From NCBI GenBank assembly GCA_031288635.1, contig JAITQZ010000051.1, forward strand, positions 1 to 19,715: a stretch of DNA of 19,715 nt. The letters run 5' to 3'. The notes under the pieces are model-generated. The model was not told the origin of the DNA and did not search any database. It worked only from the letters and a program-made list of their open reading frames with translations. The position numbers and the translations under genes were made by a program. Source of the DNA: Candidatus Peribacteria bacterium (lineage in GTDB: Bacteria > Patescibacteria > JAEDAM01 > Absconditabacterales > Absconditicoccaceae). Positions 325 to 18,286 of the stretch are shown here, in pieces. Numbering within the stretch: position 1 is the first letter of the stretch; every line of letters begins with the position of its first letter.

Positions 325-2058
325 ATGCTCTCGGACTACCAATCAGCCTTTGCCAAACTTCTCGAAAAACAACTCGGAATCCTCTCTGAAGTCCTCCAAG
401 ACCAAATCACTCTCGCTCCTGAAAATATCCAAGGAGACCTCGCATTCCCCTGCTTTAGAATCGCAAAAGACTTTGGGACAAACCCCGCAGAACTCGCAAA
501 AGACCTCGCCAAAAAACTGAATAAAGAACTGCAATCTCCAACAACCGCCAATCAAATTTTTTCTTCTTTTTTGGCACTTTGACCCTATGTAAATGTTTTC
601 ATCAGAGAGGGAATACTTGCAAAAAACCTCCTCACAGAAATTCTCAACAAAAAAGCTGACTACGGACGCTGAACAGCTACAGGAAAAGAAATCTTGGTAG
701 AAGGACGAAATATCAATACACATAAAGCACTCCATATTGGACATATTAGAAATATTCTGATGAGTGAAAGTATTGCCAGAATTGGGAAATTTGCAGGGGA
801 CAAGGTCATCAGAGTCTGTTATCCTGGAGATATCGGAGCTCACGTAGCAAAATGGATTTGGTATTATCTCAATTTCACCGACCAAACCCTCCCTCAGCAA
901 AACTTTAATAAACGAGTAGGAGAAATCTATTCCCAAGCCACACAAAAAGTAGATGAAAACCCTGACCTCTACAAACCACAAATTGGTGAACTACAGAAAA
1001 AATTAGAAGACGGAGACTCCACCTTACAGAAAATTTGGAAAGAAACCAGAATACGTTGCTTACAAGCACTTGAAACGACCTTGGCAGAACTCGGAAGTGA
1101 ACACTTTGATAAGCGGTACTTTGAAAGTGAAGTAGAACAGCCTTGAATACAAATAGTCCAACAAATACTAGCTGATGGCATTGCTCAATATTCCGAAGGT
1201 GCTATTGCAGTAAATCTCGAACAGCGAAATCTTGGTCGGTTTCTCCTCTTAAAATCCACAGGAGCATCGCTATATTCGACAAAAGATATTGCCCTAGCCT
1301 ATAGAAAAAGAGAAGAATACCCTACCTATACTACCTCTCTGTACGTAGTAGGCAGCGAACAAGAACACCATTTTCAACAGCTTTTCAAAACGCTGGAATT
1401 GATAGGGTTTGAACATCATAAATTACATCATCTTTCTTATGGATTGCTAGATTTGAAAGACGGAAAAATGTCTTCACGTGCAGGGAATGTCATCTTGTAT
1501 GAAGATTTCCGTGACCAAATGCTCGAACAAGCAGAAACAATGATGAAGGACAGAGCCCTGCCCGAGGAACAAAAAAAGCTGACTGCTCGTGCGGTAGCCT
1601 TTGGTGCAATAAAATTCCGAATTTTATTACAAGACAGCGAAAAGAAAATCCTCTTTAACCAAGAGCAAGCCCTTTCCTTTGAGGGAGAAACTTGACCGTA
1701 TTTACAGTATACTTACGCAAGGATTAACTCAATTATCAAAAAAGCACCGTTTACGATGGAACCCACAGCCATAACCTATGATGTACTTCAAGAAAAGGAA
1801 GAAAAACAATTGCTCCTCCAGCTTTCTTCATTTGCTGAAGAAATCCAAAAATCAGCTACCACCTACAAACCCAACTATATCGCAAGGTTTTGCTTGGATA
1901 CCGCACAGCTTTTCAATACCTATTACCATCACCATAAAATCATTGATGAAACTAATGGAGAAGTAAGTAAAGCACGTCTAATGCTCATCCAAGCCGTACA
2001 ACAAGTCTTAAAAAACGGACTAGAACTTCTCGGAATTGATACCGTCGAAAATATGTAA
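325..2058 (+). CDS. argS: Arginyl-tRNA synthetase (class I), four in-frame TGA read as Gly
   Basis: Charges tRNA-Arg with arginine in the cytosol. The 577-residue product has the usual ArgRS length and layout: an N-terminal tRNA-recognition domain (QGDLAFPCF near residues 37-45), the class I HIGH motif as HIGHIRN at residue 137, a KMSS loop (GKMSSRAGN, K381), and a C-terminal anticodon-binding helical domain. TGA occurs in frame at 580, 670, 1144 and 1693 (residues 86, 116, 274, 457). The last falls in FEGET-G-PYLQY, where the family has an invariant glycine, so this gene is the clearest proof of UGA = Gly. The gene ends in TAA 11 bp from the convergent ATPase gene, with no obvious terminator between. 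The ATG at 325 is chosen because family similarity begins there; no Shine-Dalgarno is seen. Confidence 0.97.
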
Positions 2059-2069
2059 AAACCAATTTC

Positions 2070-5000
2070 TTACTCCGCAGGAGAAGCCGATATTTCTTCC
2101 GAAGGAGCCGATGAGTCTCCTGAAGAAGCTGGTGTCTCCGTAGCAGGAGCTGCGACCTCTGCTGAAGGAGTTTCTGCCGACGGTTCTCCAGCACTATCAG
2201 CAGATTCAGTAGTATCTGGTAAATTTTCCTCTTCAATGCTCAGTCCAAGCCTCGCTTTAGTTTCTGCATCCACAAACTCTCTCCTCCTTCCGTATTTTTT
2301 CGCAGAATACTCTTTCAAAATCGGAACAATCTTTTTATTCTGATAGTCTTTGGTAAAAATAGAATTCATACTGAAAACACGCGTCGTCGCATTATCAATA
2401 TTCAGCTTTACATACGCTTTATAGTTGGCAATACCCACAATATCCTGAGGTCAAAGCACCGGAGCATATTCTTTTTCCAAGAATTCGGCATCAGGAGCAC
2501 CAACTTTGAAGGACATCATCGTACCCACGTTTCCAAATACCGCTGCTTTTACATCAGATTTTCCTCCTCCACTATCTCCCAAACCTTTCGCAGGGTCCAG
2601 CTGAGCTATATACTGGTGTGCCATAATTAAGCCCAAACGGTACTTTCTGGCTTCAGATAAAATATCAGCAAACGTACCAGACACAAAATTCTGAAACTCA
2701 TCGACATAAAGATAGAAATCTTTTCTGTCTTTTGCATCCATTGAAGCACGAGCCATCGCAGAATTATAGATTTTTGAAACAATAATCATCCCCAGCAGCT
2801 GAGCATTAAGTTCCCCGATTTTCCCTTTGGAGAGATTAATAAGCAGAATTTTTTGGTTATTCATAATATCATCAAACATAAATGCTGACTTCGTCTGACC
2901 GATAATATTACGGATAAGTCTGTTGGTATTAAACGATACGAATTTTGAAGAGAAGTACGGGATAATTTCCTGTTTTTCTCTATCTCCCATTGCATTGTAC
3001 GTTTTTTCTCGCCAATTACGAACAACAGCATTTGTCACTTTTTTCAATTTGAATTCTCTATATCCATCATCCGTAAACAGTCTTGTCACATCCAGCAAAG
3101 TCGGTCTATCTTCAAAATCCTCAAGCAAAGTCAGACTTCCATATTTGAAATACTCCTGAATACGCGGCCCAAAAATCTCTGGTCCAAACATTTTGAGGAA
3201 AATCTCCGTAGCATCATTTACCGTACGGTCAGCTTGGTCGAGATTATCAATCTCGTACAGATTAAGTCCCATCGGACGTTCTTCGTCTCACGCCTCAAAG
3301 TAAACAACATCTTTGGCTCTCTCTTTGGGAACATAAGCCAACATATCTTCCGCAAGGTCTCCGTGGGGGTCAATTAAACACAGTCCATCTCCATTCCAAA
3401 TATCCTGACGGGCAAGCGTCTGCAAAAATACGGATTTTCCTGTACCAGACTTTCCAATACAATAATGATGCCTGGTCCTATCCTCCCTTTTGATATACAC
3501 AGGAGAAAAAACATTTCTATAGATATTTACTCCCAAGAGCACTCCATCCTTGAAAATTTTGTATCCCCTAATTTTTTTCTCTTCTGTGGTGGGTTGTCCA
3601 CCTTCTCCTGCTAGTTCTATCGTCTCTGTACGAGAACCAACAGCTCGGGTATGTTCATACTCTTTCAGAATTGCAGACAGATTTCCTTTCTTGTAGTTTT
3701 CAGCCAAAACCCCAGAAATCACACGCCCATTTCGTTGGTCATCAGGAAAAGAAGGCAGATTGGAAGGCGGAGCAACTACTTTATACTGCATTCGTTCAAT
3801 TGCTGGAGCACGGTTGTACGTTCCATCCGGAAAGTGATAGAGAGAAGTCAATTCATTGGTAGAAAAGAAAGAATACTTGGAAAAGAACCCCGTAAGATAC
3901 ATATTCACTGCTACCGTCCACAGTGGCAGAAACAGCCACCCAAAGATATCGTGCTTGGTATTGGAAGCTTCCAGAGAATTACTATATTCATCCGCATAGA
4001 CATTATAAGCAGTTTCCAGATTATTCAGAATTTCGCGAGGTTTTCCCGGAGTATCTGAAGTAGCGACTAAAGAAATACAGGAACGAAACGCAGGATTTGC
4101 AGCTTCTTCCCCCATCGCATTTCTACTATCTTCTTTGGCTTTAACCATACGTACCATCGTCACTTTATCTTCTTCCTTTTTACTAGAAACCAATTTTTCA
4201 GACGGTCAGTAAAAAAGAAAACTGAACCATTTAAGCGGATTAATCAGATTTTTTCGGTGCCATCGCTGCGTCTCATATAAATCCAAATTTTTATAAAGCC
4301 TATCTGCCGCCACCTGTCTCCTAGCATTAAAATTAGAATTTTCTGGCTTAACTACGAAAACAATATTTACGGTATCCTCTGGAGAAACTTTTCCTATCGA
4401 ATCCAGAATATTATTGATAGGGTCATCGGGCAGATTTTTATAAAGCTTAATCGTATACAAAGGGTCTTTCGCTGGCTCTAACACCTCAATATCATAGTAC
4501 TTTTTAGTAAAAAACTTCGGCTTGGCTACTCTCTCAATAGAAGCAGAAGCATATTGGGAAGCAATTGCACTCTCCACCATATGCTGATACTCCGAATAGG
4601 TTCCAATCAAACAATGGATTTGTCCCTCTTCGTATTGATAGATGAGAACAAGTTTCTGCTTTCCAAAGAATTTTCCCATAAGTTTTTCGTGGGTAGAAAT
4701 ATCTCCCATCTTGTAGAGATTGTTGAAAACCTGAGACATTCTTCAGATTTTTTCTTTCATATCTTTGGCAATTTCTTTTTCAGCTTCACGGTCAGACTTC
4801 CCATCTCCACGAGGTAAAAGAACTTTGAGAAAAATAAGTCTATGAGAATTGAGAAACGCATATCCATAACGAAATACTCTCTCCAACATCGTCAATAAAA
4901 TTCTGAGCCCTATCGCGAGAAGCAAGATAATCAATACCCACTTTCCAAACACGGTAATTCCTGCTACCATCTGGTCCCCCCAATCCAAAGCCGCCCCCGT

Positions 5001-5267
5001 TTGAGTGGAAGCCTGCGTACTACCAGAAGCAGAAGAAGCAGCGGAAGGCACTCAATGCTGTTCAGCACTAGGAACTTCATTTTTATTGAGTTTGACTTGC
5101 TGTAGGAAATTATTTACTGCAACCATTCCTCCCATCGCATCAATACACACATATTTATTTGCTCCCCAAGCATCCGTCGTCAGCTTCCCAACATTTTCCG
5201 ATTGAGAAAACCCCTTGAGAAACTGTGTTTCGAGTTGAGACTGACATACAGATTGGGAAATTACCAT
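2070..5267 (-). CDS. Membrane-anchored VirD4/TraG-like type IV secretion/DNA-transfer ATPase
   Basis: A 1065-residue P-loop ATPase of the FtsK/HerA/VirD4 kind common in CPR genomes. Five in-frame TGA codons (residues 72, 175, 354, 660, 939) must be read as Gly to join it. Order: an N-terminal roughly 100-residue domain with two cysteines; a transmembrane helix near 105-127 (KWVLIILLLAIGL); a cytoplasmic region with a second hydrophobic stretch near 440-460; Walker A GKSGTGKS (605-612) followed by LIDPHGDLAEDM; Walker B LYVDEFQ (D856, E857); a TraM-recognition-like tail (FGNVGTMMSFKVGAPDAEFL); and an acidic Ala/Ser/Pro/Glu-rich C-terminus. It probably pumps DNA or protein across the membrane or moves pilus/secretion substrates; no relaxase or pilus genes are nearby. 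It ends in TAA. The ATG at 5267 lacks a Shine-Dalgarno and has an in-frame TAG upstream (5286-5288); translation may be coupled to the small ORF overlapping it. Confidence 0.9.
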
Positions 5268-6243: not shown

Positions 6244-6262
6244 TTTTTTCAATTTTATTAAG

Positions 6263-8839
6263 CTATTTATTTACTGCAGTAAACGCTAAAGATTTTCCTC
6301 ACAAAATCAAGTCCAAATCCACAGCCACCTCATTTCCTTCTGTAAAACGCTTCCCAATAATCTCTTTTGCCAAAGGGTCAACGAAATACTTTTCGATCGC
6401 CCTATCAATCGGTCTCGCTCCATTCGCAGGGTCTCGTCCCTTATGAGCCAAAAGATTCTTTGCGGCATTAGTAAAGGTAATCATAATCCCATTCATCTCA
6501 AAAATCTGCTTGCTTTTTTTGCGAAGCTTCAAATCGAGGATTTCCTTGAACATTTCTGGCGACATCGGATTGAAAAGTAAATTTCCATCAAATCTATTCA
6601 CTAATTCAGGACGGAGAAATTCCAACGTCAGTTCATCAACGATAGCTCTAAGTTCCGCTTTTTTTGCTAAAGCAGACGCATTTTGTATTTCAGCCTTTTC
6701 TACTAACGTTTTTTTCGGTCTACGATTTCTCTTCTTTTGAGAAGATTCTACTTCCTTTTTATCCATAATATTTTCCGCCACTCCTTCTTTTTCAACAGCA
6801 TATAAATCTGGCAAAGAAACCTGATTTGCCTGCAAGGAATCCATAATCTCCTGAGAACCGATATTACTCGTCATCAGAATAATCGTATTTTTGAAATCCA
6901 CAGTATGGCCGTAAGCATCCGTTAACATCCCATCATCCAACACTTGGAGAAAGAGATCAAAAATTTTCGGATGAGCTTTTTCTATCTCATCAAAAAGAAG
7001 CACGGAATAAGGTTTTTCTCTAACCTTATTGGTGAGAATTCCCCCTTCTTCATAGCCAACATACCCTGCAGGAGCTCCAATTAATTTAGAAACCGAATGC
7101 TCTTCTTTGAATTCACTCATATTAAATCTGAGTAAAGCTTTTTCATCTCCAAAAAGTTGCTCCGCAAGAGCTTTTGCAAGTTCCGTTTTTCCCACTCCCG
7201 TAGGTCATAGAAAAAGAAAGGAACCCATCGGCTTTTTCGGGTCTTTCAAACCAATTCTTGCACGACGAATAGCCCCACTCAAAACAGCAATCGCCTCCTC
7301 CTGACCAATGACTCTTTTGGCGAGTTCTTGTTCCAAATGCAAAAGTTTCCCACTATCTTCCGACTGCAATTTTGTCAGTGGAATAGCGGTTTGCTCAGAG
7401 ATAACCTGTGCAATATCCTTCTCATCCACCACCAACTTTTTCTCAGAGGTTTCCCAATTTGTTTTTTGTTGATGATACTGAGTCTGCAGAATAGAAATAC
7501 TCCCAGGAATTTCTGAAAGCTGACGCTCAATCTGTTGACGTTTTAGAGGAGAAAGAGAAAACTGAAGCTCTTCAGTGAGAGAACGCTGTTTCTCTGTCAG
7601 AGTAGTAATTTCCTCAGCAAGACTGGAAATCTGCAAGGGTAAAGTCGTAGCATCTGATTTCACTTTTGCACACGCTTGATTGAGAACTAGCATTGCCTTA
7701 TCAGGAAAGTTCCTTTCCTTGAGATAGGTACCAGCCAAATCAACCGTAGCCTCTAAAGCACTATCACGAATAGTCAAACCATAATGTTGCTCCAACCCTT
7801 GTTCAATTTTCCTGAGAATGGTCAACGTTGCTTCCTTGTTAGGTTCCTGAACAACAAGATTCTCAAATCTTCTGGAAAAAGCTGCATCCTTTTCCAAGGT
7901 TTTACGATATTCAGCAGAAGTCGTTGCTCCAATCAGACGAAGAGAATCATCAGAAAGTTTAGGCTTGAGCAATTCAGCCATATCCATAGAACCTTCTGTT
8001 TTTCCCATTCACTTAATATTGTGAATCTCATCAATAAACAGCAAGACATCAGGATTTGCAGCCTCTTTCAGCAGGGCAGAAACCTTTTGCTCAAATTGTC
8101 CTCTATACTGAGAATCAGAAAGTAGTTCTCCAAGATTGATTTTCAGAATTTTCTTCTCTTTGAGAAAATCAGGCACTTCCCCACTTGCAATTTTCTGAGC
8201 CAAGAGGTCGACAATCACGGTCTTCCCTACCCCAGACTCTCAAAGAATCATCACGTTATTTTTCTCTTTTTTCGAAAGGATTTCAATTAACTTGCGAAAT
8301 TCTTTATCTCTACCAATCACCGCATTAAGTTTTCCCGCTTTTGCAGAAGCAGTAAGCTCTATTCAAAAAGCTGAAGGCTGTCCATTTTCCGATGTATCCA
8401 TCATTTTCTTGGTAGCAATCAGTCTTTCAACCTTTTCTGGAGTAATCCCCTGTTGACGAAGTGTCTGAGAAAGAGGATGAGAAGACTGCAAGAGAGAAAG
8501 TAAGAGATGATATGGGGAAGTTTCCTGGTTTCACCCTATCATAGCTACCTCATTAGCCTGCTGTAATACTTCATATACCTCCTGCGACATAGAGAGCGTT
8601 CAAGTAGCATTATGAGGCACTTTTGCCAACATTCCTTCAGCTGAGAGAGAGATTTCTTGGGGATTTTGCGATAATCCAGAGAAAAGCTCCCTAATTTGCT
8701 GATTAGTAGATAAAGTAGAAAAAAGATGAGCAACATCAAAACAATCTCTCCCTTGTTCTTTTGCTAGAGAAAAAGAATCCACCACAACGGTCGCCGCCTC
8801 TTCATTATACTTTCCTAAAATACTGCCAATATCTGCCAT
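6263..8839 (-). CDS. Clp AAA+ ATPase (ClpB/ClpC type), seven in-frame TGA read as Gly
   Basis: Hexameric, two-ring protein unfoldase/disaggregase of 858 residues. An N-terminal Clp_N-like repeat domain (1-150) is followed by NBD1 with Walker A GESGVGKT (200-207) and Walker B FIDEIHNI (D270, E271). A short coiled middle domain (about 400-475) comes next, then NBD2 with Walker A GPTGVGKT (545-552), Walker B LLFDEIEKAHP (D617, E618), sensor TSNIG and the FLRPELVNRFD arginine-finger region. TGA at residues 80, 103, 159, 200, 277, 545 and 847 reads as Gly; residues 200 and 545 are the first glycines of both P-loops. The short middle domain favours ClpC/ClpE over ClpB, but I see no IGF-type ClpP loop: that place carries a Lys/Arg-rich insertion (about 670-715). 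The true end is TAG at 6263, since the TGA at 6299 is Gly. Its own promoter lies upstream, and the BtpA-family gene follows. Confidence 0.94.
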
Positions 8840-8870
8840 AGAAAAATTTTGATAAATAAAACTATTTGTT

Positions 8871-8898
8871 AGTATAATTATCTGATAAGCAATGTCAA
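8871..8898 (-). promoter_or_regulatory. Strong sigma70-type promoter for the clp gene
   Basis: On the minus strand a consensus TTGACA (8893-8898) and TATACT (8871-8876) are spaced by 16 bp, 31 bp before the clp ATG. No inverted repeat resembling a CIRCE or other heat-shock operator is visible between 8840 and 8943. Confidence 0.75.
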
Positions 8899-8943: not shown

Positions 8944-8974
8944 AAAAAAAAGCTGCCCATTGTTGATGAACAGC
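8944..8974 (-). terminator. Rho-independent terminator after the ion-channel gene
   Basis: On the minus strand GCTGTTCAT (8966-8974) pairs with ATGGGCAGC (8952-8960), with two G-U pairs and a 5-nt loop, followed by eight T (A at 8944-8951). It starts 25 nt after the TGA at 9000-9002 but before the first in-frame TAA (8922-8924), which matters for where the channel gene ends. Confidence 0.85.
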
Positions 8975-8999
8975 CGAAGAATAACGTCTTGGCTACTCT

Positions 9000-9803
9000 T
9001 CATTGTGAATTGTCGCCAGTATTCTTTTCTTTACATAATCTTTCGAGCATTTGCCCTTGTTGTTCTATCAGATTTTTCAGCTCCCTGATTGCATTCAGCT
9101 GCTCTTGATTCTCATCTTGAGCCATCGCGTCATTGATACTCCCCAAAAACATTGGGAAAACCATTAACCCTCCAATAATCAATTGAGCCAAAAAATACAT
9201 CTGAACTAAATAATACCAAATATCCTCTTTTGTCCCCGTAATCGCTTCAGGAATTTCATTCCATCCCTCTATAATAAAAATATGGAAAGTCGTAATCAAA
9301 GACCTAATAGGATTACCGAAATATTCTGGCGACAAATGTTGAAACAACACTGTCGAAAGCGTCGAAAAGAGAAAAATCATCAAGAGCAGAATAGGTAGCA
9401 AAGCAATACTCGCTTTTAACCCTAACAAGAAAGAATCTAATTTAATCCCTACTTGCTTAAAGAAACGGACTAACCGCAGCACCCTCAATACCCTAATAGA
9501 GCGAAGCCCTAAAACCACCAGATAATGAGTATCCAAACTCTCCGCCATTATCAAAATGGTAATAATCACTAATAGCAGACAGAGTATCAAATCCATTTTA
9601 TCCCAAACATCTTTGAAAAACTGCTTTTTTTTTGCCATCATCTTTACCGTAATTTCCAAGAAAAAGGCAAACGTAAGCAACATTTCTAAAGAGTTTAATA
9701 CGGGTATCTCTACAAAACTTTGTATCAATACCACAATAATATTCAAGATAATGATTCGATGAACATTCCTCTCATTGAGGAAAAATTTTGTTAATTGTCC
9801 CAT
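9000..9803 (-). CDS. Single-domain voltage-gated cation channel (NaChBac/Cav-like)
   Basis: A six-helix Ion_trans protein, 267 residues to the TGA. S4 is unmistakable: five arginines at every third position (R101, 104, 107, 110, 113). The pore loop has FIIEGWNE (E179-G180-W181), matching the TLESW filter of bacterial sodium channels but with EGW as in eukaryotic calcium-channel repeats. S6 is followed by a C-terminal coiled coil (about 225-260) expected to tetramerise the channel. It probably conducts sodium or calcium upon depolarisation. ATG 9803 is chosen over 9848, whose extension overlaps the upstream microprotein. A TGA stands at the natural C-terminus. If read as Gly by the host, the frame adds 26 residues to TAA 8922 and crosses the terminator hairpin. 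It lies 4 bp after the 55-residue microprotein. Confidence 0.88.
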   Translation of the reverse strand: MGQLTKFFLNERNVHRIIILNIIVVLIQSFVEIPVLNSLEMLLTFAFFLEITVKMMAKKKQFFKDVWDKMDLILCLLLVIITILIMAESLDTHYLVVLGLRSIRVLRVLRLVRFFKQVGIKLDSFLLGLKASIALLPILLLMIFLFSTLSTVLFQHLSPEYFGNPIRSLITTFHIFIIEGWNEIPEAITGTKEDIWYYLVQMYFLAQLIIGGLMVFPMFLGSINDAMAQDENQEQLNAIRELKNLIEQQGQMLERLCKEKNTGDNSQ

Positions 9804-9807
9804 ACTT

Positions 9808-9975
9808 TTACGTTTTATATCCAAAAACCAACAGAATGATACCAACAACGAAAACTACAATAACCAAAGAAAAAACGATTATCATCTTGAGTTCATTATA
9901 GTGTAATTTACCATCATTAGGGTCAATACCTATTGATATATGGTATTTCTTAATCCATTTAATCAACTTTTTCAT
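9808..9975 (-). CDS. 55-residue one-helix membrane microprotein with EF-hand-like loop
   Basis: ATG at 9975 and TAA at 9808-9810 enclose a 55-residue product. The N-terminus is basic (MKKLIKWIKKY), then comes DPNDGKLHYNE (18-28), which resembles an EF-hand loop one residue short (D1, N3, D4-G5, L7, E11), then a single hydrophobic helix (about 32-51) ending in GYKT. The stop is 4 bp before the channel ATG, so the two are almost certainly co-translated. By position and topology it is a candidate auxiliary subunit or calcium sensor of the channel. That function is inference, and the EF-hand similarity is imperfect. No family is recognised. Confidence 0.7.
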   Translation of the reverse strand: MKKLIKWIKKYHISIGIDPNDGKLHYNELKMIIVFSLVIVVFVVGIILLVFGYKT

Positions 9976-10000
9976 TTTTTACTTTTTTTTTATTTTACAT

Positions 10001-10029
10001 AAGGAAAGAAAGCTGACAAAAATGCCAGC
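10001..10029 (-). terminator. Probable terminator after the 58-residue membrane protein gene
   Basis: On the minus strand GCTGGCA (10023-10029) pairs with TGTCAGC (10012-10018), with one G-U pair and a 4-nt loop, followed by a T-rich but interrupted tract (10011-10001). It starts 24 nt after the TAG. The weak tail suggests partial read-through into the microprotein/channel pair. Confidence 0.55.
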
Positions 10030-10053
10030 CCCTCCCAGTTTTTTACTTTACAT

Positions 10054-10230
10054 CTACTCCTCAGAATTTTCATCCTTAGGAGATTTAGAGGTGAATATCT
10101 TATATAAATAATACACCACCCCAGCCACAAGAGCCAGTCCAAGCAATGGTTTGATAACAGACCACGCCAAAACCAGCCCAACAATCGCTGCCACGATAAT
10201 AATCGCGACTTTCCAATACAACTTCTTCAT
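10054..10230 (-). CDS. 58-residue two-helix membrane microprotein
   Basis: ATG 10230 to TAG 10054 encodes a small basic-start protein (MKKLYWKVAIII). It has two hydrophobic segments (about 7-25 and 29-47), joined by an SVIKP turn, and a charged tail (SKSPKDENSEE). It starts 11 bp after the ABC ATPase stop, so it is probably translated as the last gene of the transporter operon. It has no recognised family. It may be a small transporter subunit or regulator; this rests only on position. No glycine is encoded by TGA. Confidence 0.65.
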   Translation of the reverse strand: MKKLYWKVAIIIVAAIVGLVLAWSVIKPLLGLALVAGVVYYLYKIFTSKSPKDENSEE

Positions 10231-10241
10231 TTCTTTTTATT

Positions 10242-11093
10242 TTAAGAGTTGATAATATCACTTGAAATTTGTTTTACCAAATCCAAATGACCTTGTCCGA
10301 ACGGTTGCCAAGCCAGTCCCAATTCTTTCAAATTGTACTGACTTACTATCGTGCCGATACGAATCAGGTCTCCCTGTTCATCCCGAGGATAACCAATCAC
10401 ATAAATTTGGTCAGCCAACTCTACAGCCAGCTCTAAATCGTGAGTCGAAAAAATAATCGTATTCAACTCATCAGCTGCCATAGTGAGCTCCATCATCTCT
10501 TTTGTGTTTTGGATTCCTCGTATGCTCAATCCTGAGAAAGGCTCATCCATAATAATGAAACGATTTCCTCTCAGAATTTGCATAATGACAGCCGTACGCT
10601 GCTTCTGTCCACCGGAACAATCATTGATATGGTTATGTGCTGCCTCCGATAAATGCCAATTATTCAGATACATATTCACTAAATCCTTTCGTTCAGATTT
10701 AAGAACATTTCCCTTAGCAGCGGCAAACATCAGCTGTTGAAACAGTGTCATATCCCTAAAAAGGGTATATTTCTGGTCAACAAGTCCCATATCACCTTCC
10801 TTCACAATTTTTCCTCCTCCATTTTTCAAATCAGGTATCATAATAGACCCTGTTGTTGGAGGGACGAGCCCAGAAAGCACCTTGAAAAGCGTTGATTTTC
10901 CACGTCCAGAATCGCCAACAATAGCAATCATCTGTCCCTGAAATCGCCCTTCACGGATAACATCCTTCTCTTCAAAAGAAATGTCTTGAATTAAGACCTT
11001 CTGTCCTTTTCCATCGTTGTTATCTACTATCAAAGATACATTTTCTACTTTGAGAATCGTATCTCCATACGTATAATCCAATTTCGTATCCAT
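10242..11093 (-). CDS. ABC transporter ATP-binding protein, NitT/TauT type
   Basis: A 283-residue nucleotide-binding subunit that hydrolyses ATP to drive the adjacent permease. Visible motifs: Walker A GDSGRGKST (60-68), Q-loop region LVDQKYTLF, a signature CSGGQKQR (159-166) in which Cys replaces the usual Leu, Walker B FIIMDEP (D183, E184) and the H-loop STHD. It has the TauB/SsuB/NrtC layout with an insertion-rich N-terminal strand pair. The ATG lies 3 bp after the permease stop. Substrate cannot be told from the sequence; nitrate, sulfonate, taurine, thiamine-precursor and metal systems all belong to this group. Confidence 0.9.
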   Translation of the reverse strand: MDTKLDYTYGDTILKVENVSLIVDNNDGKGQKVLIQDISFEEKDVIREGRFQGQMIAIVGDSGRGKSTLFKVLSGLVPPTTGSIMIPDLKNGGGKIVKEGDMGLVDQKYTLFRDMTLFQQLMFAAAKGNVLKSERKDLVNMYLNNWHLSEAAHNHINDCSGGQKQRTAVIMQILRGNRFIIMDEPFSGLSIRGIQNTKEMMELTMAADELNTIIFSTHDLELAVELADQIYVIGYPRDEQGDLIRIGTIVSQYNLKELGLAWQPFGQGHLDLVKQISSDIINS

Positions 11094-11096
11094 ACC

Positions 11097-11903
11097 TTAA
11101 AACGTTTTTTGAATTTTACTATACGGAAAGAGAGCTGGCTTCAACTTTGCCAATCCAAAATCAATCAAGGCACCTAAGCCAAAAATTAAAAGCTGAATCG
11201 CAAAGATAGAGTCTTGTGCCCCCATACGCTCTGAATCTTTAAGCCAGATACCAACGCCTCCCGCTGAACGGACAATGACTTCCACTGTCACGAACATCAT
11301 CCAGGTGATAGCAAGGTTTTGACGAAGAATTTCTATCAAATAATCTAGCCTCCCTTTGATAACAACACGCCAGAGCATTTCCCAACGGGAACACCCCATC
11401 GTGCGAGCCAAATTATATTCCTCGATAGGAATCTCGGCAATCATCGACATCAGAGACGTGATAAAATACACCGATACAAACATCGTCAGAATAGTAATCT
11501 GTACACTCCGCCCTTGTAATCCTGCCTGCGTAAGGTAAAACGTAATTCCCACCATCGGCAAGAAACGGATTTTACTTACCATCTGAGCCAGTGGTCTCAT
11601 CCACGCCAACGGCGAAAGATAGGAAAACAACATAGATACCAACAGTGCATAAAAGGTTGCCTGCAGACACAGACTCATACTAGTCGCAAACTCACGAACG
11701 AGTCCACGACTCCATAAATCTCCTAATGCTCCCCACACCTCCGACGGAGAGGGAATAAAGGAAACTTCTGTATACATTGATGAACGAATCCAAAAGAAGA
11801 GCAACACTGCCAACCAAAAGATAAGCAGAATAACACTCTGATTATTGGACACGTTTTCAAACGGTATAATCGGCTTTTTCAGCCATTTTTTAATCCTATT
11901 CAT
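11097..11903 (-). CDS. ABC transporter permease, NitT/TauT (BPD_transp_1) type
   Basis: A 268-residue inner-membrane permease with about six hydrophobic helices, the first at roughly residues 25-40. The cytoplasmic coupling loop carries the EAA signature as EEYNLARTMGCSRWE (161-175), the contact site for the ATPase. The overall pattern matches SsuC/TauC-like permeases. Only one permease and one ATPase gene are present, so a homodimeric transporter is expected. A hairpin resembling a terminator/attenuator separates it from the upstream receptor gene, which would make receptor more abundant than transporter. No in-frame TGA. Confidence 0.9.
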   Translation of the reverse strand: MNRIKKWLKKPIIPFENVSNNQSVILLIFWLAVLLFFWIRSSMYTEVSFIPSPSEVWGALGDLWSRGLVREFATSMSLCLQATFYALLVSMLFSYLSPLAWMRPLAQMVSKIRFLPMVGITFYLTQAGLQGRSVQITILTMFVSVYFITSLMSMIAEIPIEEYNLARTMGCSRWEMLWRVVIKGRLDYLIEILRQNLAITWMMFVTVEVIVRSAGGVGIWLKDSERMGAQDSIFAIQLLIFGLGALIDFGLAKLKPALFPYSKIQKTF

Positions 11904-11950
11904 TCTATTTATTTTTTTATTTTATTATTACATATAACACTTAAGCAAAC

Positions 11951-11990
11951 AAAAAGGGAACGTACGATACCGCACGTCCCCTCTGCGTGC
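11951..11990 (-). terminator. Terminator or attenuator with two competing hairpins
   Basis: On the minus strand GGGGACGTGC (11972-11981) pairs with GTACGTTCCC (11956-11965), followed by TTTTT, a typical terminator. The same GGGGACGTGC also contains CGTGC that pairs with GCACG at 11986-11990, making an alternative upstream hairpin that would block the terminator. It lies between the receptor stop (12007) and the permease start (11903). The rest of 11904-11950 is AT-rich without a clear promoter. Confidence 0.65.
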
Positions 11991-12006
11991 CAAATAAGCA
12001 CTAAGT

Positions 12007-13848
12007 TTATTTCGTGGTAGAGATTTCTACCCTTCGACTCAAGATGGCGTCTTCTCTGCCATTTTCATCTCGGATAAGATTTTCCTCACCACGACCATAT
12101 ACTTCGCCAAAACGTTCAGACTTAGCACCCAGTCGAATCAATTCTCTACGAACTGCTTGAGCTCTCTTTTCAGAAAGCGTCAAATTCAACTGGTCATCAC
12201 CATCTGAAGAGGTATAACCGATAATATTGACCTTAAGGTCCTCAGAGAATGCAAGCTGATTATAAATCTGCTTTACTACCTCTTTTCCCTTAGGTTCAAT
12301 CTCATCGCTACCGACACGGAAGGTAATGTTGAAATTACCTGTCGTAACGATTTGCCCTGTATTGGTGGAATAATCCACCTCATAGGCTTCGCCAGACTGG
12401 TCGAACATTTTGGAAGAGATATTTTGAACATAGGTCAAATTGACGGCTTCCTCATACGGAATCGTCCGTTTGATTTCGTTCTTGTATCCCAACGGGGACA
12501 AGTCTTCTAAGTACTGAGCAATCTGAGTATAGACCGGTTCATAGCGGGACGGTGTCCCACTTAACCCGTAATACTGTTGCACATCCGCGTAATTAAATAC
12601 GCGAGTACCACCAATCTCCTGTCCCTCAGCTTTTGAATAGCCTTTGAATGCTCGGTACCAATAATCACCATTCTGCATGTTAAACAGTTTAGAATTACAT
12701 TCCGTAGCATATCTGAGCCATTCATCATATTGTTTGACTTGATTGGTAGCCGTATACATCGCGACCAACATCTTTTCAAACAAATCTGAATTTTTTTGAG
12801 CCCATTCGTCAATAATGATAAGGGTGTTCGGCATTTGGTTGTTATACTCTTTTGTAGAGATTAACGACACATAGCCATCACCCACCGCATCAAAGACCTG
12901 CTTATCAACGGGAAACCATACGGAAGTCGCATCAATAGCTTTTTGCACCGTTTTTCCGGTACGTTTGCCATTGACGATTTCTGCTAGCTCAACTTTGTAG
13001 CCTTTCTTGACTGAAGCAATAAAGTCCTGTCCTGCACGAGCAATACTACCACCTTCTGCGTGAACAAAGTTCACTGCATTAGAGTCGTATGTTTTTTCGT
13101 CAGGATTGACGGGAATACCGAGCTGTGCCGCATAGTTTACGACAATCACCCAGTCTCCATCACCAACAACCGTGGAAACCAAAGCTCCTCTCAGTTTCTG
13201 AGGGTCGCTTTTCCACGCTCTCGGACCAATCAATCGGTCTTCACCATAACTTAATCCGGCTGCAGCAACCACTTTCGCGTGATATTTTCCAGAGCCATAG
13301 ATGTCATCTATCCTCTTTTGAATCACACTAATGTAATACGGTGCTCCATCTCCCATTATCCACACACCAATCGCACCATTCACAGGGAAGTTATTTCCCG
13401 AATGGAACTCTTTTAATGCAGATAATTGAGAGTTTTGGATCGCGTCAAAGCTTTCGTTGGATTCTAGTACGAGATTTACTCCCGCTTTTTCCATTAAAGA
13501 GCCTTCAGCTGTGGCCAAAGTAGCCGTCTGCGGAGAATTATTCCCTACAGCTGCTGACCAACCAGACACCCCATTCCAAAGATACCCCATAAATTTAATA
13601 CGAGGCATTGGTTTGGATGTCGGCTTGCTAGAGGGGAAAGACAATTTCCCCGTTGCCATCTGGTTATCCACTACACTCGTCTCCTGTTCAATACCAGTAA
13701 CGGTCTTGGAAACGAATTGTTTCACATCTGGTGAAAGAAAGTACAGTGCTAGCACTGCAATTATCACCAAGGGAACGCCTACGATAAAACGCTTCGTCCC
13801 TTTTTTCATACCACCCCAAACGGATGGATTTTTACTTAAATTTGTCAT
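12007..13848 (-). CDS. Membrane-anchored substrate-binding protein fused to an OmpA-like domain
   Basis: A 613-residue extracytoplasmic protein. After a short basic N-terminus comes a membrane anchor (RFIVGVPLVIIAVLALYFL, about 20-38) with no lipobox. A periplasmic-binding-like domain spans about 75-480 (KFMGYLWNGVSGW, GAIGVWIMGDG, AAAGLSYGEDRLIGPRAW, LIIIDEWAQ) and fits a receptor for the adjacent NitT/TauT-type importer. Residues about 505-613 form an OmpA/MotB C-terminal domain (ITFRVGSDEIEPKG, LSEKRAQAVRREL). In this domain the usual GHTD is GYTS, so the peptidoglycan-binding Asp is replaced, while the conserved Arg of LSEKRA is kept. An anchored receptor with a wall-binding-type domain makes sense in a cell with one membrane. 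No TGA among about 54 glycines. Ends in TAA. Confidence 0.88.
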   Translation of the reverse strand: MTNLSKNPSVWGGMKKGTKRFIVGVPLVIIAVLALYFLSPDVKQFVSKTVTGIEQETSVVDNQMATGKLSFPSSKPTSKPMPRIKFMGYLWNGVSGWSAAVGNNSPQTATLATAEGSLMEKAGVNLVLESNESFDAIQNSQLSALKEFHSGNNFPVNGAIGVWIMGDGAPYYISVIQKRIDDIYGSGKYHAKVVAAAGLSYGEDRLIGPRAWKSDPQKLRGALVSTVVGDGDWVIVVNYAAQLGIPVNPDEKTYDSNAVNFVHAEGGSIARAGQDFIASVKKGYKVELAEIVNGKRTGKTVQKAIDATSVWFPVDKQVFDAVGDGYVSLISTKEYNNQMPNTLIIIDEWAQKNSDLFEKMLVAMYTATNQVKQYDEWLRYATECNSKLFNMQNGDYWYRAFKGYSKAEGQEIGGTRVFNYADVQQYYGLSGTPSRYEPVYTQIAQYLEDLSPLGYKNEIKRTIPYEEAVNLTYVQNISSKMFDQSGEAYEVDYSTNTGQIVTTGNFNITFRVGSDEIEPKGKEVVKQIYNQLAFSEDLKVNIIGYTSSDGDDQLNLTLSEKRAQAVRRELIRLGAKSERFGEVYGRGEENLIRDENGREDAILSRRVEISTTK

Positions 13849-13909
13849 TTTTTTTAAATTTCTTAATTTTGTTTCTAAATAATTTTTTTTAACTTACATA
13901 ATCCACAGA

Positions 13910-15073
13910 TTAAAGAATATTGAATCCTTTATCTACGGTTTCCTCCGGAGTCAATTCGTGTCCCGGATTTGAGATTTCGCTAATATTCAGCTTTTTAATT
14001 TCACCTCTATCCATTTGTTGGATGAAGTGGTCTAATTCGGCTCTATTGGCACTTGCAGTACCATTGAACAGAACACGTTGTTGACTCAATTGTTGAATAT
14101 TATTACGAATAGTTGCGATATTATCGCTAATAGTTGCCTGAGCCGATTGCATAGCAACTTGGAACACCCAACCATCTTTGATATTAAACGCAGCAGCAAT
14201 ACCTTCTGAAGCATTACGCATTCGGGTAGTTGCCGTCAATTTCCGTTCAATAATCCGAATACTCGTTTTTGTAGCATTCAAATACATTTTAGCCGCTAAA
14301 CGATTGTCTTTTAAGATTTCAATCGCTTTGCCAAACTGATTTGCATACTGAGCGTACATTTTAGACGTATCTTTGTCAGAATCAGCCTCCTGTTTCAGCA
14401 TCAGAGCATTTTGAACATACTCTTGGGCTTCTCTTTCTTTGGCACGAGATTTTTCCAATAAACCTTTGGCTTTTAGTTCCTTGGCTTCTTTTTCAAATTT
14501 CTGTGCCTCAGCATAGATACCTTTTACCCGCAGATATTTTTTATCTGCCTCTTTATCCAAATTGGAAGAATCAGTAATAAAATCTGTGCGTACGCCATCA
14601 GCTTCGTTGATTTTATTATCCACCTCTCTGACTGCTTCTTCTACATCTTCAGCCAACATTTGAAGGTTTTCAATCGGATTTTTAGCAATAAGCCCTTTAC
14701 GTTTTTTGAACATCTGAATATCAAACGCTCTCCCAACAAGGTCCAATGTTGCATTGCCCATATTGTGAAGCATTTTGATAAGACGAGGTGCCAAGCCATA
14801 AAGCGTTATCGCCACAATAGCCACAGCTCCAAAGAGAATAGCTTTGCCTCCAAATTCTACTGCATTGTCCATCATAATGATGAGCGACGGTAAACTCTTA
14901 GCAAACCATACTCCAAGAGCAATAATTCCTCCCCAAACTAAAACCTTTGAAAGAAATTTCTTTCCTTCGGGAGTCTTGAGTTTTTCAGGAATTACACTTC
15001 CTACATATTGCATTATCGGAAGCTCTTTCAATTCATTGGGTATTTCTACCCGTGTTTTACTTTCTGTCGACAT
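13910..15073 (-). CDS. Two-helix membrane protein with long coiled coil, unknown family
   Basis: A 387-residue protein. A soluble N-terminus (ELKELPIMQYVG) precedes two hydrophobic helices (about 42-65 and 75-98). After these comes a long helical, charge-rich region (about 138-320; AEDVEEAVREVDNKINEADG, FEKEAKELKAKGLLEKSRAK) ending in an NPGHELTPEETVDKGFNIL tail. The layout recalls PspA/ESCRT-III-like or other membrane-scaffold coiled-coil proteins, but I do not recognise the family. It lies 61 bp before the receptor gene in the same direction. Its ATG is in the same frame as the preceding gene with no TAA or TAG between, so under UGA = Gly the two could be made as one 670-residue protein. 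Confidence 0.82.
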   Translation of the reverse strand: MSTESKTRVEIPNELKELPIMQYVGSVIPEKLKTPEGKKFLSKVLVWGGIIALGVWFAKSLPSLIIMMDNAVEFGGKAILFGAVAIVAITLYGLAPRLIKMLHNMGNATLDLVGRAFDIQMFKKRKGLIAKNPIENLQMLAEDVEEAVREVDNKINEADGVRTDFITDSSNLDKEADKKYLRVKGIYAEAQKFEKEAKELKAKGLLEKSRAKEREAQEYVQNALMLKQEADSDKDTSKMYAQYANQFGKAIEILKDNRLAAKMYLNATKTSIRIIERKLTATTRMRNASEGIAAAFNIKDGWVFQVAMQSAQATISDNIATIRNNIQQLSQQRVLFNGTASANRAELDHFIQQMDRGEIKKLNISEISNPGHELTPEETVDKGFNIL

Positions 15074-15103
15074 TTTACTACAAATTTTTAATGTTCAAAT
15101 TTT

Positions 15104-15922
15104 TCATTCCGTAATTACCGTCTGGATTTGAGAGATAAACTGCTTCATCTCCTGAATTACCATAGATAATGCCGTCTTACCAGAAACGATTCTCAAATCA
15201 ATCTCTTGCATCTGCGGAAGATACTTTTCAGCAATTTGTCCCGCATTAGCACGCTTTTGAGAAATGATTACCCGTTTCTGTTTAATTTGCTCTTCCAATG
15301 CTTCCACCTCTTGTTCCAGACCATTTACTTCTGTTTCCAGAGTCAACTTTTCTGTATTCAATTGATTTTGCAAAGAAACCTTCTGTTTCTCACGACCAGC
15401 AATATCACTCTCAATCGCCTGAGTAAGCTCTACTACATAGTCATTTCCTGTACTAATGAGAGAATCTTTGGAAACAGAACCACCAGACATCATTTTAATA
15501 GCCGCAAAGGCATTATAAATGTTGTCTGCCGTAATCCCACCTTTCATCGCTTCTACTCCATTCCAAAACTCCAAGAAGTCCACACCCGGTTTATTGATTT
15601 TCTCCAAGAAATCATACATTTTTTGGATCATTTCCTGAGTCATTTCCGGGGTTACCACTGCTGGGGTTGTAAATGAAGATACAGGGACATTACCTTGTCC
15701 TGTAGTTCTTGCCGATGAAGCAAAAACCGTTGAACCAGGAATAGTACTTCCTGGAGGTTGCACGGTTGCTTTCCTCGCCTCAGAGGGCTGTACTTGCTGC
15801 GGTACCTCATTAGCTGCCTCTTGAGCAGCCTGTTGTTCTTTTAATTCAGCGAGATATTCGGGAGTCATAGCCATCTGTGCCAACTTCCCAAAAAGTCCGC
15901 CAAAACCTCTTTCTTTTCCCAT
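15104..15922 (-). CDS. Coiled-coil cytosolic protein, unknown family, ending at TGA
   Basis: First gene of the membrane block. The 272 residues to the TGA comprise a Gly/Phe-rich start (KERGFGGLFGKLAQM), a Gln/Pro/Ser/Thr-rich linker (about 30-90), a globular helical segment (about 90-160; FLEFWNGVEAMKGG) and a coiled coil (about 175-240; LEQEVEALEEQIKQKR). It has no signal peptide or membrane helix, so it is likely cytosolic. Two TGA codons (15104-15106 and 15095-15097) follow the coil. If TGA is Gly the frame runs on into the next gene. The ATG sits in a GTAAAAGTATGGGA context identical to that of the channel gene. The product could work with the following coiled-coil membrane protein; no family is recognised. 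Confidence 0.8.
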   Translation of the reverse strand: MGKERGFGGLFGKLAQMAMTPEYLAELKEQQAAQEAANEVPQQVQPSEARKATVQPPGSTIPGSTVFASSARTTGQGNVPVSSFTTPAVVTPEMTQEMIQKMYDFLEKINKPGVDFLEFWNGVEAMKGGITADNIYNAFAAIKMMSGGSVSKDSLISTGNDYVVELTQAIESDIAGREKQKVSLQNQLNTEKLTLETEVNGLEQEVEALEEQIKQKRVIISQKRANAGQIAEKYLPQMQEIDLRIVSGKTALSMVIQEMKQFISQIQTVITE

Positions 15923-16064
15923 ACTTTTACATTTTTTAATTTATTTAACTTGTTATTTTATTATTTATTTTTCTAACCAACTATCATAAAATAATAGTCG
16001 ACTCGTTGACTTATCTTTTGTTAAAGAACTCATCTACAGAAGGGCATTCCTTCTGATAGATATA
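15923..16064 (-). other. Long 5' leader of the membrane block
   Basis: About 140 nt between the predicted start of transcription and the ATG at 15922. It contains a 6-bp hairpin (AGAAGG 16038-16043 with CCTTCT 16049-16054, 5-nt loop) and several AGTC/GACT half-sites around 15988-16012. No known riboswitch fold was recognised and no ORF of note is present. Leader length is unusual for this window, where other leaders are 20-40 nt. Confidence 0.4.
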
Positions 16065-16095
16065 TTTATAAGGATATATATATATCTAAAGTCAA
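16065..16095 (-). promoter_or_regulatory. TTGACT-(TA)n promoter of the membrane block
   Basis: On the minus strand TTGACT (16090-16095) is followed after 3 nt by the self-complementary GATATATATATATC (16073-16086) and then TATAAA (16065-16070). The 19-bp spacing is long, and the TA tract may act as an operator or need DNA untwisting. The same arrangement recurs at 18726-18754 and 19476-19506. A 14-bp palindrome (16112-16125, TTTACA-TT-TGTAAA) lies just upstream and could be an activator site. The remaining bases to 16219 show no gene. Confidence 0.6.
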
Positions 16096-16219: not shown

Positions 16220-16909
16220 CTACAGCAAAATCTTTTTCACCATTTCTATCGCCCTCCTCTGCTCCAAAAAATACGGCGAAGTCGCAATGGTAATCCCTTC
16301 AGCCTTCTCCATCAAAGCTTTCAACACAGGTACATACTTCTCTACCTCAATCCCCATCTCTGGAGCAAAAAAATCCACATCAATATCGAGCAAATAAGGC
16401 TCCACCGACACCTGCAAATGCTGCAATCCATATTCCGTTACTACCAGCTGAACCTCCGTAATCAATCCACTCTTCAAAGCAGGCTGCACAAAATTCCCCA
16501 CATTGGTACAACGCTGCACAAATGCAAACACCTCAGACGAACAATCCACCTCCAACACACCAACAGGCAAAGAAAACTGATTTTCCCACATATCCGAATG
16601 CTGGTCAATATGAACCACTTTGCACCTCTTACGAGTACGAAGATATTCCTGATACCAAAAAAACAACGCGTGATTATGATTATCAACCACATAACACTTT
16701 CCATATTTCAGAAAATATTGAAGTCCATGAAAACCCCCCTCTTGCTCCGCAAAAGCAACATACCTTTCCTCCACTGCCAGTTTTTTTTCCAGTTCCACAA
16801 AATCCTTCACTTCCACCAGCGGAGCTACTCGCAGCGGTTCAGCAGAACGAGAAAACTGCATATTCCCATCCTCAGGAGCCAGAAAAAATCACGTATACAA
16901 AGTGTTCAT
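16220..16909 (-). CDS. UPF0489-family protein (arginase-like metal motifs)
   Basis: A 229-residue protein resembling the UPF0489 family. Metal-ligand-like motifs are VVHIDQHSDMWEN and LLDIDVDFFAPEM. They correspond in form to the DxHxD and DxDxxDP motifs of ureohydrolases (arginase/agmatinase fold), so a metal-dependent hydrolase is plausible but unproven. The conserved ending ATSPYFLEQRRAI is also visible. The start is moved upstream to ATG 16909: reading TGA 16889-16891 as Gly extends the N-terminus to MNTLYTGFFLAPEDGN, in keeping with the family. It ends in TAG. It is divergent from the rsmF-like gene with an 81-bp gap, and a minus-strand TATATT (16918-16923) suggests a near-leaderless transcript. 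Confidence 0.8.
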
Positions 16910-16977
16910 CGCATTTCAATATACACAAAAACGCCCCAATTACCAGCAAAAAAGGTTTCTTTTTCAGAGAGAAATCG

Positions 16978-16983
16978 TATACT
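16978..16983 (+). promoter_or_regulatory. -10 element giving a probable leaderless rsmF-like mRNA
   Basis: TATACT lies 7 bp before the ATG at 16991, so transcription would begin at or within a base or two of the start codon. The -35 is weak (TTTCTT near 16956-16961). No Shine-Dalgarno precedes the ATG, consistent with leaderless translation. Confidence 0.4.
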
Positions 16984-16990
16984 CACCCCT

Positions 16991-18286
16991 ATGAAACATC
17001 CCAGCTATCTCGATATGGTCAAAATCCTCCTCCCTCCTGCAGAATTTTTGGAATTCGAAAAATGGTATGACAAACCCATAAAAAAAAGTATCAAAATGCT
17101 GAAAAGAACAACATCACAAAACCAAACCCACCACTACCAAGAAACTTACCAACAACTCACTCACGACGGACGAACACTTACCCCACCAAAATTTTCACGA
17201 GAAGCAACCACCTACGACGACCTCCTCTTCGTCGAAAAACCCGACAAACAAAGCCTAGGAAGCCACCCTTTACATCAACAAGGAGCCTTTTATGTCCAAG
17301 AAATGGCTGCTGGCTTACCAGCCCAAATACTGAATATACAACCCAATGACCTCGTCCTCGATATGTGTGCTGCCCCAGGCGGGAAAAGCATACAATTAGC
17401 CGACAAACTCTGAGAAAACGGTCTCCTCATTTCTAACGAACTCAACCCCACCAGAAGAAAAGCTCTAGAAGCAAACCTTGAAAGATGTGGCATTCGGAAT
17501 GCTGTCATCACTGGCTACGATGGGAAAATACTTGGGAATATACTGTCAGAACAATGTGATAAAGTCCTCCTAGACGCCCCTTGTAGTGGAGAAGGAATGC
17601 AGTACAAATCAGACTTCAAAATCTACCACTGGAATGAAAAAATAGCCCACAAGCTCGCCCAAACCCAAAAATCTCTCCTCCTAGCAGGATTAGAAGCTCT
17701 AAAAATCTGAGGAGAATTGGTCTATTCCACCTGTACCACGAATGTAATCGAGAATGAAGGAGTCATTGCCGATGTCTTGGAAATATTAGGAGATAAGGTA
17801 GAATTGTTAAACGTAGAAATCGAAGAAAAGTCACCAGGAATATATGGGAACAACACATCATCTCCCATAAATTGATGTAGGGACACCGCAGTACTGCGGT
17901 GTCCGAACCCTGCAACCAGCGGGGTTGTAATGCACCCAAACCACAAAACAATATCCAACAATGTCGCCCGTTTCCGACCCCACATCCACCACACCGGCGG
18001 ATTTTTCATCGCAAAATTCAAAAAAATCAAATCCATTCCAACCCCAGATAAAAACATCCCCACAGAACATCCAACCCCAGAACGAACCATCACCCATCAC
18101 GATACCATCACCAATTCCAACATCCTCCTCCTCCAAACCAAACACACCATCCGAGCCGTAGCAAAAAGATTTTCAGAAATAAAAAATCAGCTTTTTATCC
18201 AGCGTGCAGGATTGCCGATTTTCAAAATATTAAACGACGGACAACAAAAACCTCTCTCTGGACTAAAAAAGATTTCTGAACGATAG
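16991..18286 (+). CDS. rsmF: RsmF/RsmB/NOP2-family rRNA (cytosine-5) methyltransferase
   Basis: Transfers methyl from S-adenosylmethionine to C5 of a cytosine in rRNA. The 431-residue product has a short N-terminal region, then HPLHQQGAFYVQEMAAGLP, the SAM motif VLDMCAAPGGKS (C126-S133), motif IV DAPCSGEGM (C198), motif VI VYSTCTTN (catalytic C248) and ARFRPHIHHTGGFFIAK. This is the RsmF (YebU) pattern, with a C-terminal RNA-binding-like tail (IQRAGLPIFKI). TGA at 17411, 17708 and 17873 (residues 141, 240, 295) reads as Gly; 17708 gives KIGGELVYSTC. A palindromic insertion of about 20 codons sits near residues 295-316, between the conserved blocks. The frame is open far upstream (from 16133), but that part is antisense to the UPF0489 gene; ATG 16991 fits the family start. 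Ends in TAG. Confidence 0.9.
17881..17904. repeat. Perfect 24-bp palindrome inside the rsmF-like gene
   Basis: Twelve bases GGACACCGCAGT are followed directly by their exact reverse complement. A second small inverted repeat follows (CAACC 17914-17918 with GGTTG 17923-17927). Both lie within an in-frame stretch, about 17873-17935, that is more GC-rich than its surroundings and separates conserved methyltransferase motifs. It resembles protein-coding palindromic repeat elements known from other bacteria, but only one copy is in this window. Confidence 0.85.

Follow-up and report, generated by a model that had tools for sequence, protein, structure and literature searches.

The 19,715-nucleotide stretch of contig JAITQZ010000051.1 analyzed here (hereafter the window), from an assembly named Candidatus Peribacteria bacterium (GCA_031288635.1), carries a minus-strand block at positions 9000-15922 that reads as one operon of eight genes, encoding an ATP-binding cassette (ABC) importer with an OmpA-domain receptor, two coil-type proteins, two small proteins and an ion channel. 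This block is almost certainly written in the standard genetic code, and it very probably represents a true insertion in a genome that follows code 25. An interpretation made from the letters alone (the sequence-only reading) had proposed that the block came from a donor in which UGA means stop and that its decoding has not been amended since. The missing TGA codons, the TGA codons found at natural gene ends, and the use of CGA and CGG for Arg in the block vs Trp in the flanks all bear this out, and we place the probability of an import from a standard-code donor that is still unconverted at about 0.8.

The eight block genes contain 157 GGN glycine codons and no internal TGA, compared to 218 GGN and 20 TGA in the eight flank genes (Fisher p=5.6e-5), a recount in close agreement with the initial hand count of about 158 glycines without TGA in the block and 21 TGA of about 246 glycines in the flanks. 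A block without TGA among its 157 glycines has a probability of 1e-6 if the flank rate applies, falling to 1.5e-9 with that of G005, the nearest related genome, which was sampled as 20 stretches totaling 313,890 bases, or about a quarter of the genome. The 206 open reading frames (ORFs) of at least 150 amino acids in this sample hold 669 TGA and 4840 GGN codons, with TGA accounting for 12% of glycines. The existence of many other equally TGA-free host stretches had been named as grounds to abandon the import explanation; the longest TGA-free run in the G005 sample covers 65 glycines when ORFs from 100 amino acids are considered, vs 157 in the block. Single genes lacking TGA are not diagnostic, since TGA is likewise missing from three flank genes out of eight (the btpA-like gene with 22 GGN, the gene at 18844-19434 with 13, and the UPF0489 gene, if it starts at 16861, with 10), but a run of eight such genes is. 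TGA is absent from 31 of the 206 G005 ORFs.

The sequence-only reading did not consider CGA and CGG, which are described as Trp codons in Absconditabacteria in the portions of Shulgin and Eddy (2021, PMC8629427) that treat this lineage. To score these codons, TGA, CGA and CGG were masked in the queries and the aligned codons of relatives were counted; the resulting cells are related sequences rather than independent events, the IMG/VR loci include near-identical contigs, and the ClpB gene of G005 enters the flank counts twice (L081 and L100). At 13 CGA/CGG sites in the flank genes for ArgS, the type IV secretion system (T4SS) ATPase and ClpB, relatives carried TGG in 77 and CGA/CGG in 72 of 216 cells, with no Arg codons. 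In contrast, at 17 of the 19 block sites, compared across 59 phage or IMG/VR loci, Arg codons occupied 111 of 632 cells, CGA/CGG 9, and TGG none; these 17 are the sites with homologues, the other two, in the channel gene, falling outside the comparison. Six sites in the RsmF-type gene of the right flank, aligned to G005, faced three TGG, one CGA/CGG and two other codons, with no other Arg codon among them. Individual codon columns were read against outgroups that were mostly Peregrinibacteria, taken as standard-code. CGA codons 492 and 753 of the T4SS ATPase face Trp in 18/18 and 16/17 outgroups, respectively, and CGA codon 605 of the receptor faces Arg in 169 of 170. Summed log-odds favored Trp for flank CGA (2.1 vs -1.9 for Arg) and Arg for both block CGA (1.2 vs -5.4 for Trp) and block CGG (6.8 vs -5.7 for Trp), while the two flank CGG sites favored neither amino acid. 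Because the block has no TGA against 157 glycine codons and reads CGA and CGG as Arg where the flanks read them as Trp, we regard it as standard code within a genome recoded at UGA, CGA and CGG.

The aligned columns show that both flanks use code 25, with UGA at conserved glycine positions and CGA and CGG read as Trp. At ClpB TGA codons 200, 277 and 545, 33 of 34 homologue cells have Gly, one TGA of the RsmF-type gene falls at the conserved GG of GGxLVYSTC, and flank TGA sites taken together face GGN in 79 and TGA in 57 of 191 cells; other TGA sites lie in variable columns or face Ala or Ser (e.g., T4SS ATPase codons 660 and 939). A release factor 2 (RF2) profile found nothing above cut-off in nine of nine code-25 relatives, the weaker matches being the RF1 gene in the eight that were checked, and scored above cut-off in 10 of 14 control genomes. 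Given no RF2 match above cut-off, UGA should not terminate translation in these relatives, and we infer that it is non-terminating in the window's own genome as well. ARAGORN detected no transfer RNA (tRNA) gene in the window, and tRNA-Gly(UCA) was not seen in the window, the roughly one quarter of G005, or loci L001-L003. Among 11 genomes searched with ArgS, the nearest were G005 (72% identity), G006 (67%) and G007 (63%), whose ArgS genes contain 3, 1 and 4 TGA codons, respectively, vs 15-26 in the other full-length near ArgS genes. These three genomes form a low-TGA code-25 group (L001, L002, L003 and L065-L067), with TGA making up 12-17% of glycines in L001-L003, vs more than 50% in L022 and L020. 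G005, with TGA inside its genes, also bears the NCBI name Candidatus Peribacteria.

The TGA codons that close the coil and channel genes had been assigned to natural C-termini, and this assignment stands, as homologues end there too. Coil homologues terminate at the same point, the one in L103, a 172-kb IMG/VR contig, with TAA, and channel homologues P0126-P0129 are 259-267 amino acids long compared to 267 in the window. The terminator reported behind the channel gene is likewise present as a 10-pair stem with a T-run. Neither of the two TGA-ended genes has a backup TAA or TAG close behind. In the channel frame, the next in-frame TGA lies at 8895 and the first TAA or TAG at 8862-8864, past the hairpin at 8975-8951; the coil frame after its TGA meets no TAA or TAG before 13910 and runs through the next gene.

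Operons of the same type were found in two other code-25 genomes, G032 and G050. The G032 operon, at the end of a 146-kb contig, has 137 GGN codons, and the G050 operon, flanked on either side by TGA-rich genes within a 59-kb contig, has 101; neither contains a TGA, and in the host genes beside them TGA constitutes 62-63% of glycine codons. All five gene ends checked in each operon are TAA or TAG. CGA/CGG codons face Arg codons 48 times and TGG once among 286 cells for G032, and 57 and 0 times, respectively, among 249 cells for G050. The possibility that the G032 copy (L047) represents a small contaminant contig was rejected, given its location on a 146-kb contig beside TGA-rich genes. The G050 receptor is distant, with 18% identity over the compared region, and has both NMT1 and OmpA domains. 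In approximately unbiased (AU) tests, a grouping of the G032 copy with the window and proteins P0001-P0003 was rejected (p 1e-77).

Further features of these two genomes were also observed. In G050 (contig C41, L180, L181, L182), the operon lies between ClpB, identified by eye and alignment, and ArgS; the window operon abuts ClpB, with ArgS 7 kb off, and this common neighborhood may reflect either a shared insertion site or chance. The G032 operon includes an extra gene for a 203-residue protein between receptor and permease (L177, 1975-2583), with a signal-peptide-like start by eye and no Pfam match. Elsewhere in G032, a mostly TGA-free run of ORFs occupies the end of contig C11 (L178, 2963-10029) and includes MscS, DUF389 and a receptor-family fragment; one ORF within this run (5936-6553) contains three TGA.

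A search with the receptor returned 762 proteins. Among the best 120 of these, all those named to organism belong to Bacteroidota (Sediminibacterium, Chitinophagaceae, Cytophagales and others), and the closest are metagenome proteins: P0001 (93% identity), P0002 (66%), P0003 (62%) and P0004-P0006 (50-52%). P0001-P0003 retain all 10 receptor Trp residues as Trp under the standard code and therefore look standard-coded. P0005 is the receptor of L103, in which three of four tested neighboring proteins match PHROGs, one of them the phage adenylosuccinate synthetase family. Operon relatives were found in phage LR756500 and 58 IMG/VR loci. In 55 of these 59, a permease match lies no more than about 5 kb from the receptor; the other four stretches end early. 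In the receptor tree, the window groups with P0001-P0006 and L103 with 100% support, and the grouping is the same when L103 is left out. For the coiled-coil protein, homologues P0121 (94%) and P0122-P0124 (66-68%) were recovered.

No receptor was detected in a set of 14 genomes, the nearest among them, with a query that does match in G032. Among 353 genomes of the class, a binding-domain profile found a full-length receptor in two, G032 and G050; four other matches were weak or partial, among them the fragment on G032 contig C11. In a 379-genome sample of the phylum the receptor query gave a single match, to the OmpA part. Vertical descent had been set as a check on the import explanation, and relatives of the receptor were found in Bacteroidota and phage contigs rather than in sister genomes; this distribution, with the receptor missing from the nearest genomes and rare in the class, supports the import. 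Peregrinibacteria, previously suggested as an example of the donor, were rejected, as the class search included a Peregrinibacteria record (G014) and found full-length receptors only in the two code-25 genomes. A plasmid search with the ABC ATPase returned at least 5000 matches, all below 60% identity, and among the matches listed those with annotation are ordinary ABC ATPases.

Based on these data, the whole operon was probably acquired by an Absconditabacteria-like bacterium that translates UGA as Gly and both CGA and CGG as Trp, with the donor spelling retained; the source would be Bacteroidota, one of their huge phages, or some other, unsampled carrier of the operon. Translation in such a host would place Trp at 19 Arg positions, including Arg605 in the OmpA domain of the receptor, would fuse the coil and coiled-coil genes through two UGA codons into one 670-residue protein, and would extend the channel by 46 codons beyond its end and past the terminator, giving rise to non-stop messages. 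The operon probably functions poorly in this host, unless the import is very recent or faulty products are tolerated. A broader scenario, which we consider doubtful, is that operons of this type have made their way into code-25 bacteria on three or more occasions, keeping standard spelling through a phage-borne pool moving between codes, the mistranslated, fused and non-stop products being regulatory or tolerated.

Several observations weigh against an unconverted import. Channel homologues P0126 (72%), P0127 (68%) and P0129 (45%) are named Candidatus Peribacteria, and, should these genomes be recoded, a TGA-free channel would long have resided in such lineages; the best channel match in the class search has 34% identity, and an IMG/VR search with P0126 gave seven pattern matches and no relatives. 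The window yielded no integrase, att site, empty site or clear pair of repeats; the search for repeats and att sites gave only A/T-rich or short chance-like pairs, and synteny in relatives stops short of both block junctions. Block and flanks have similar codon usage, with differences at Gly and, more weakly, at Leu and Pro (a comparison in which s2 was out of frame); a fresh import need not show such likeness. Many of the CGA/CGG sites fall in variable columns and carry little information singly. Finally, joining G032 with the whole P0001-P0006 clade was not rejected by the AU test (p 0.067), the G032 branch being long. Start context did not discriminate, being A-rich in block genes and some flank genes alike.

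Of the alternatives, the one that survives best, although we still consider it unlikely, is that selection keeps the operon readable in both codes as it moves between standard-code and recoded hosts, for instance as phage cargo. It would account for TGA-free operons in three code-25 genomes, the TAA or TAG ends checked in G032 and G050, and the 58 IMG/VR loci. The available sections of Liu et al. (2023, PMC10746230) also describe code-11-compatible phages, without in-frame TGA, that are matched by the clustered regularly interspaced short palindromic repeat (CRISPR) spacers of these lineages, as well as prophages in these hosts that favor code 25. The channel relatives in genomes named Candidatus Peribacteria would imply long residence, again if those are recoded. 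However, two of the eight window genes end in TGA without a nearby TAA or TAG and 19 CGA/CGG codons would be misread, so the window copy is not readable in the code of its host, and no phage structural genes were found among the scanned window genes (PHROGs for the six larger block genes).

It is less probable still that the assembly is chimeric, with a standard-code piece falsely placed between two stretches of Absconditabacteria sequence. While the source is a single contig and the G032 operon lies at a contig end, two joins would be needed, each located in one of the intergenic gaps on either side of an intact operon and its terminator; moreover, the window contains no N, and G050 has the same arrangement inside a contig between TGA-rich genes. 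The last alternative is that the operon is native and highly expressed and is free of TGA through strong codon selection, as the sequence-only reading suggested, or through chance. It fits the single TGA-free genes of the flanks and of G005 but not the 65-glycine limit in G005 or the absence of the receptor from near genomes, and it leaves the CGA/CGG contrast unexplained, which refutes it, leaving a negligible probability, unless that contrast is an alignment artefact. The unconverted import is thus the reading that we prefer.

Table 1. Features of the window, listed in descending order through the block and followed by the flanks.
Feature	Coordinates	Strand	Details
Coil gene	15107..15922	-	272 aa; stop TGA 15104-15106; second in-frame TGA 15095-15097
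Coiled-coil protein	13913..15073	-	387 aa; hydrophobic segments near N-terminus (by eye); stop TAA
Receptor	12010..13848	-	613 aa; N-terminal helix, binding-protein fold, C-terminal OmpA domain; stop TAA
ABC permease (BPD_transp_1)	11100..11903	-	268 aa; stop TAA
ABC ATPase	10245..11093	-	283 aa; stop TAA
Small ORF s1	10057..10230	-	58 aa; hydrophobic by eye; stop TAG
Small ORF s2	9811..9975	-	55 aa; one hydrophobic segment by eye; stop TAA
Ion channel (Ion_trans)	9003..9803	-	267 aa; stop TGA 9000-9002
Terminator-like hairpin	8951..8975	-	10-pair stem and T-run, directly 3' of channel gene
ClpB-like AAA+ ATPase, left flank	6266..8839	-	7 in-frame TGA
T4SS-type ATPase, left flank	2073..5267	-	5 TGA, 6 CGA
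Arginyl-tRNA synthetase (ArgS), left flank	325..2055	+	4 TGA, 6 CGA/CGG
UPF0489/peptide-arginase-like gene, right flank	16223..16861	-	
RsmF/NOP2-type RNA methylase, right flank	16976..18283	+	start uncertain; 3 TGA

The small membrane ORFs s1 and s2 are additional to the sequence-only reading, and an s1-like ORF occurs at the same place in L103 (13514-13690). No Pfam family exceeded the cut-off for the coil protein, for which there was only a weak unrelated match, and the 387-residue coiled-coil protein had no Pfam match at E 0.01. In the right flank, the UPF0489 gene has a weak, sub-cut-off match to peptide arginases (FlmR/OhkR family). At 17881-17904, within the frame of the RsmF-type gene, lies a perfect 24-base palindrome, GGACACCGCAGTACTGCGGTGTCC, adjoined by the TGA codon at 17873 and followed by an imperfect second hairpin; together, palindrome and hairpin may be a small repeat that was inserted here.

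Recoding is often assumed to protect a genome against foreign genes, and here the reassigned UGA and the reassigned CGA/CGG serve as separate marks of the entry of a complete foreign operon, with G032 and G050 repeating the TGA part of the case. Such operons offer a natural experiment on whether foreign genes are converted after crossing a code barrier, and gene prediction run with a single code for a whole genome will annotate such islands incorrectly.

With a binding-protein fold, permease and ATPase all present, the operon is predicted to encode an NMT1/taurine-type ABC importer, and its original job was most likely to bring in a small solute, either anionic or similar to a sulfonate. Foldseek rows relate the receptor to the NMT1/TauA/CmpA-type substrate-binding fold and to OmpA domains, and its N-terminal helix appears by eye to be a membrane anchor; the first two rows are the TssL periplasmic domain with low TM-scores (0.21-0.22), and our reading follows the binding-protein and OmpA rows. 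The NMT1 Pfam family does not match the window receptor, while it does match that of G050. Such a binding protein, tethered to both inner membrane and peptidoglycan, would most likely work with the ABC importer, a membrane coiled-coil scaffold and the ion channel. In comparison with the TauA, SsuA, NrtA and CmpA importers, the window system has a binding protein with a fused OmpA domain and N-terminal helix, and its operon also includes coiled-coil genes and an ion channel. PADLOC matched only components of other systems, namely their ATPase, OmpA and coiled-coil parts. The Ter/TelA systems of jumbo phages, as far as they are presented in the sections consulted of PMC7824862, are similar in that jumbo phages carry membrane-associated genes of this broad sort, but no block gene matches a TelA family profile, and a TelA identity was rejected.

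With respect to the code, we found no report of a standard-code operon in a code-25 genome in the open-access literature, the scope of our search, with subscription papers and preprints outside it, and the passages of PMC8629427 consulted do not discuss foreign standard-code operons. The window flanks behave as those passages describe, whereas the block does not. The block resembles the code-11-compatible phages of Gracilibacteria and Absconditabacteria, in the account given in those sections of PMC10746230, in lacking in-frame TGA near code-25 bacteria and in having phage relatives. It differs from them in lying between host housekeeping genes, in lacking backup stops, and in carrying CGA and CGG codons that also conflict with the code of the host.

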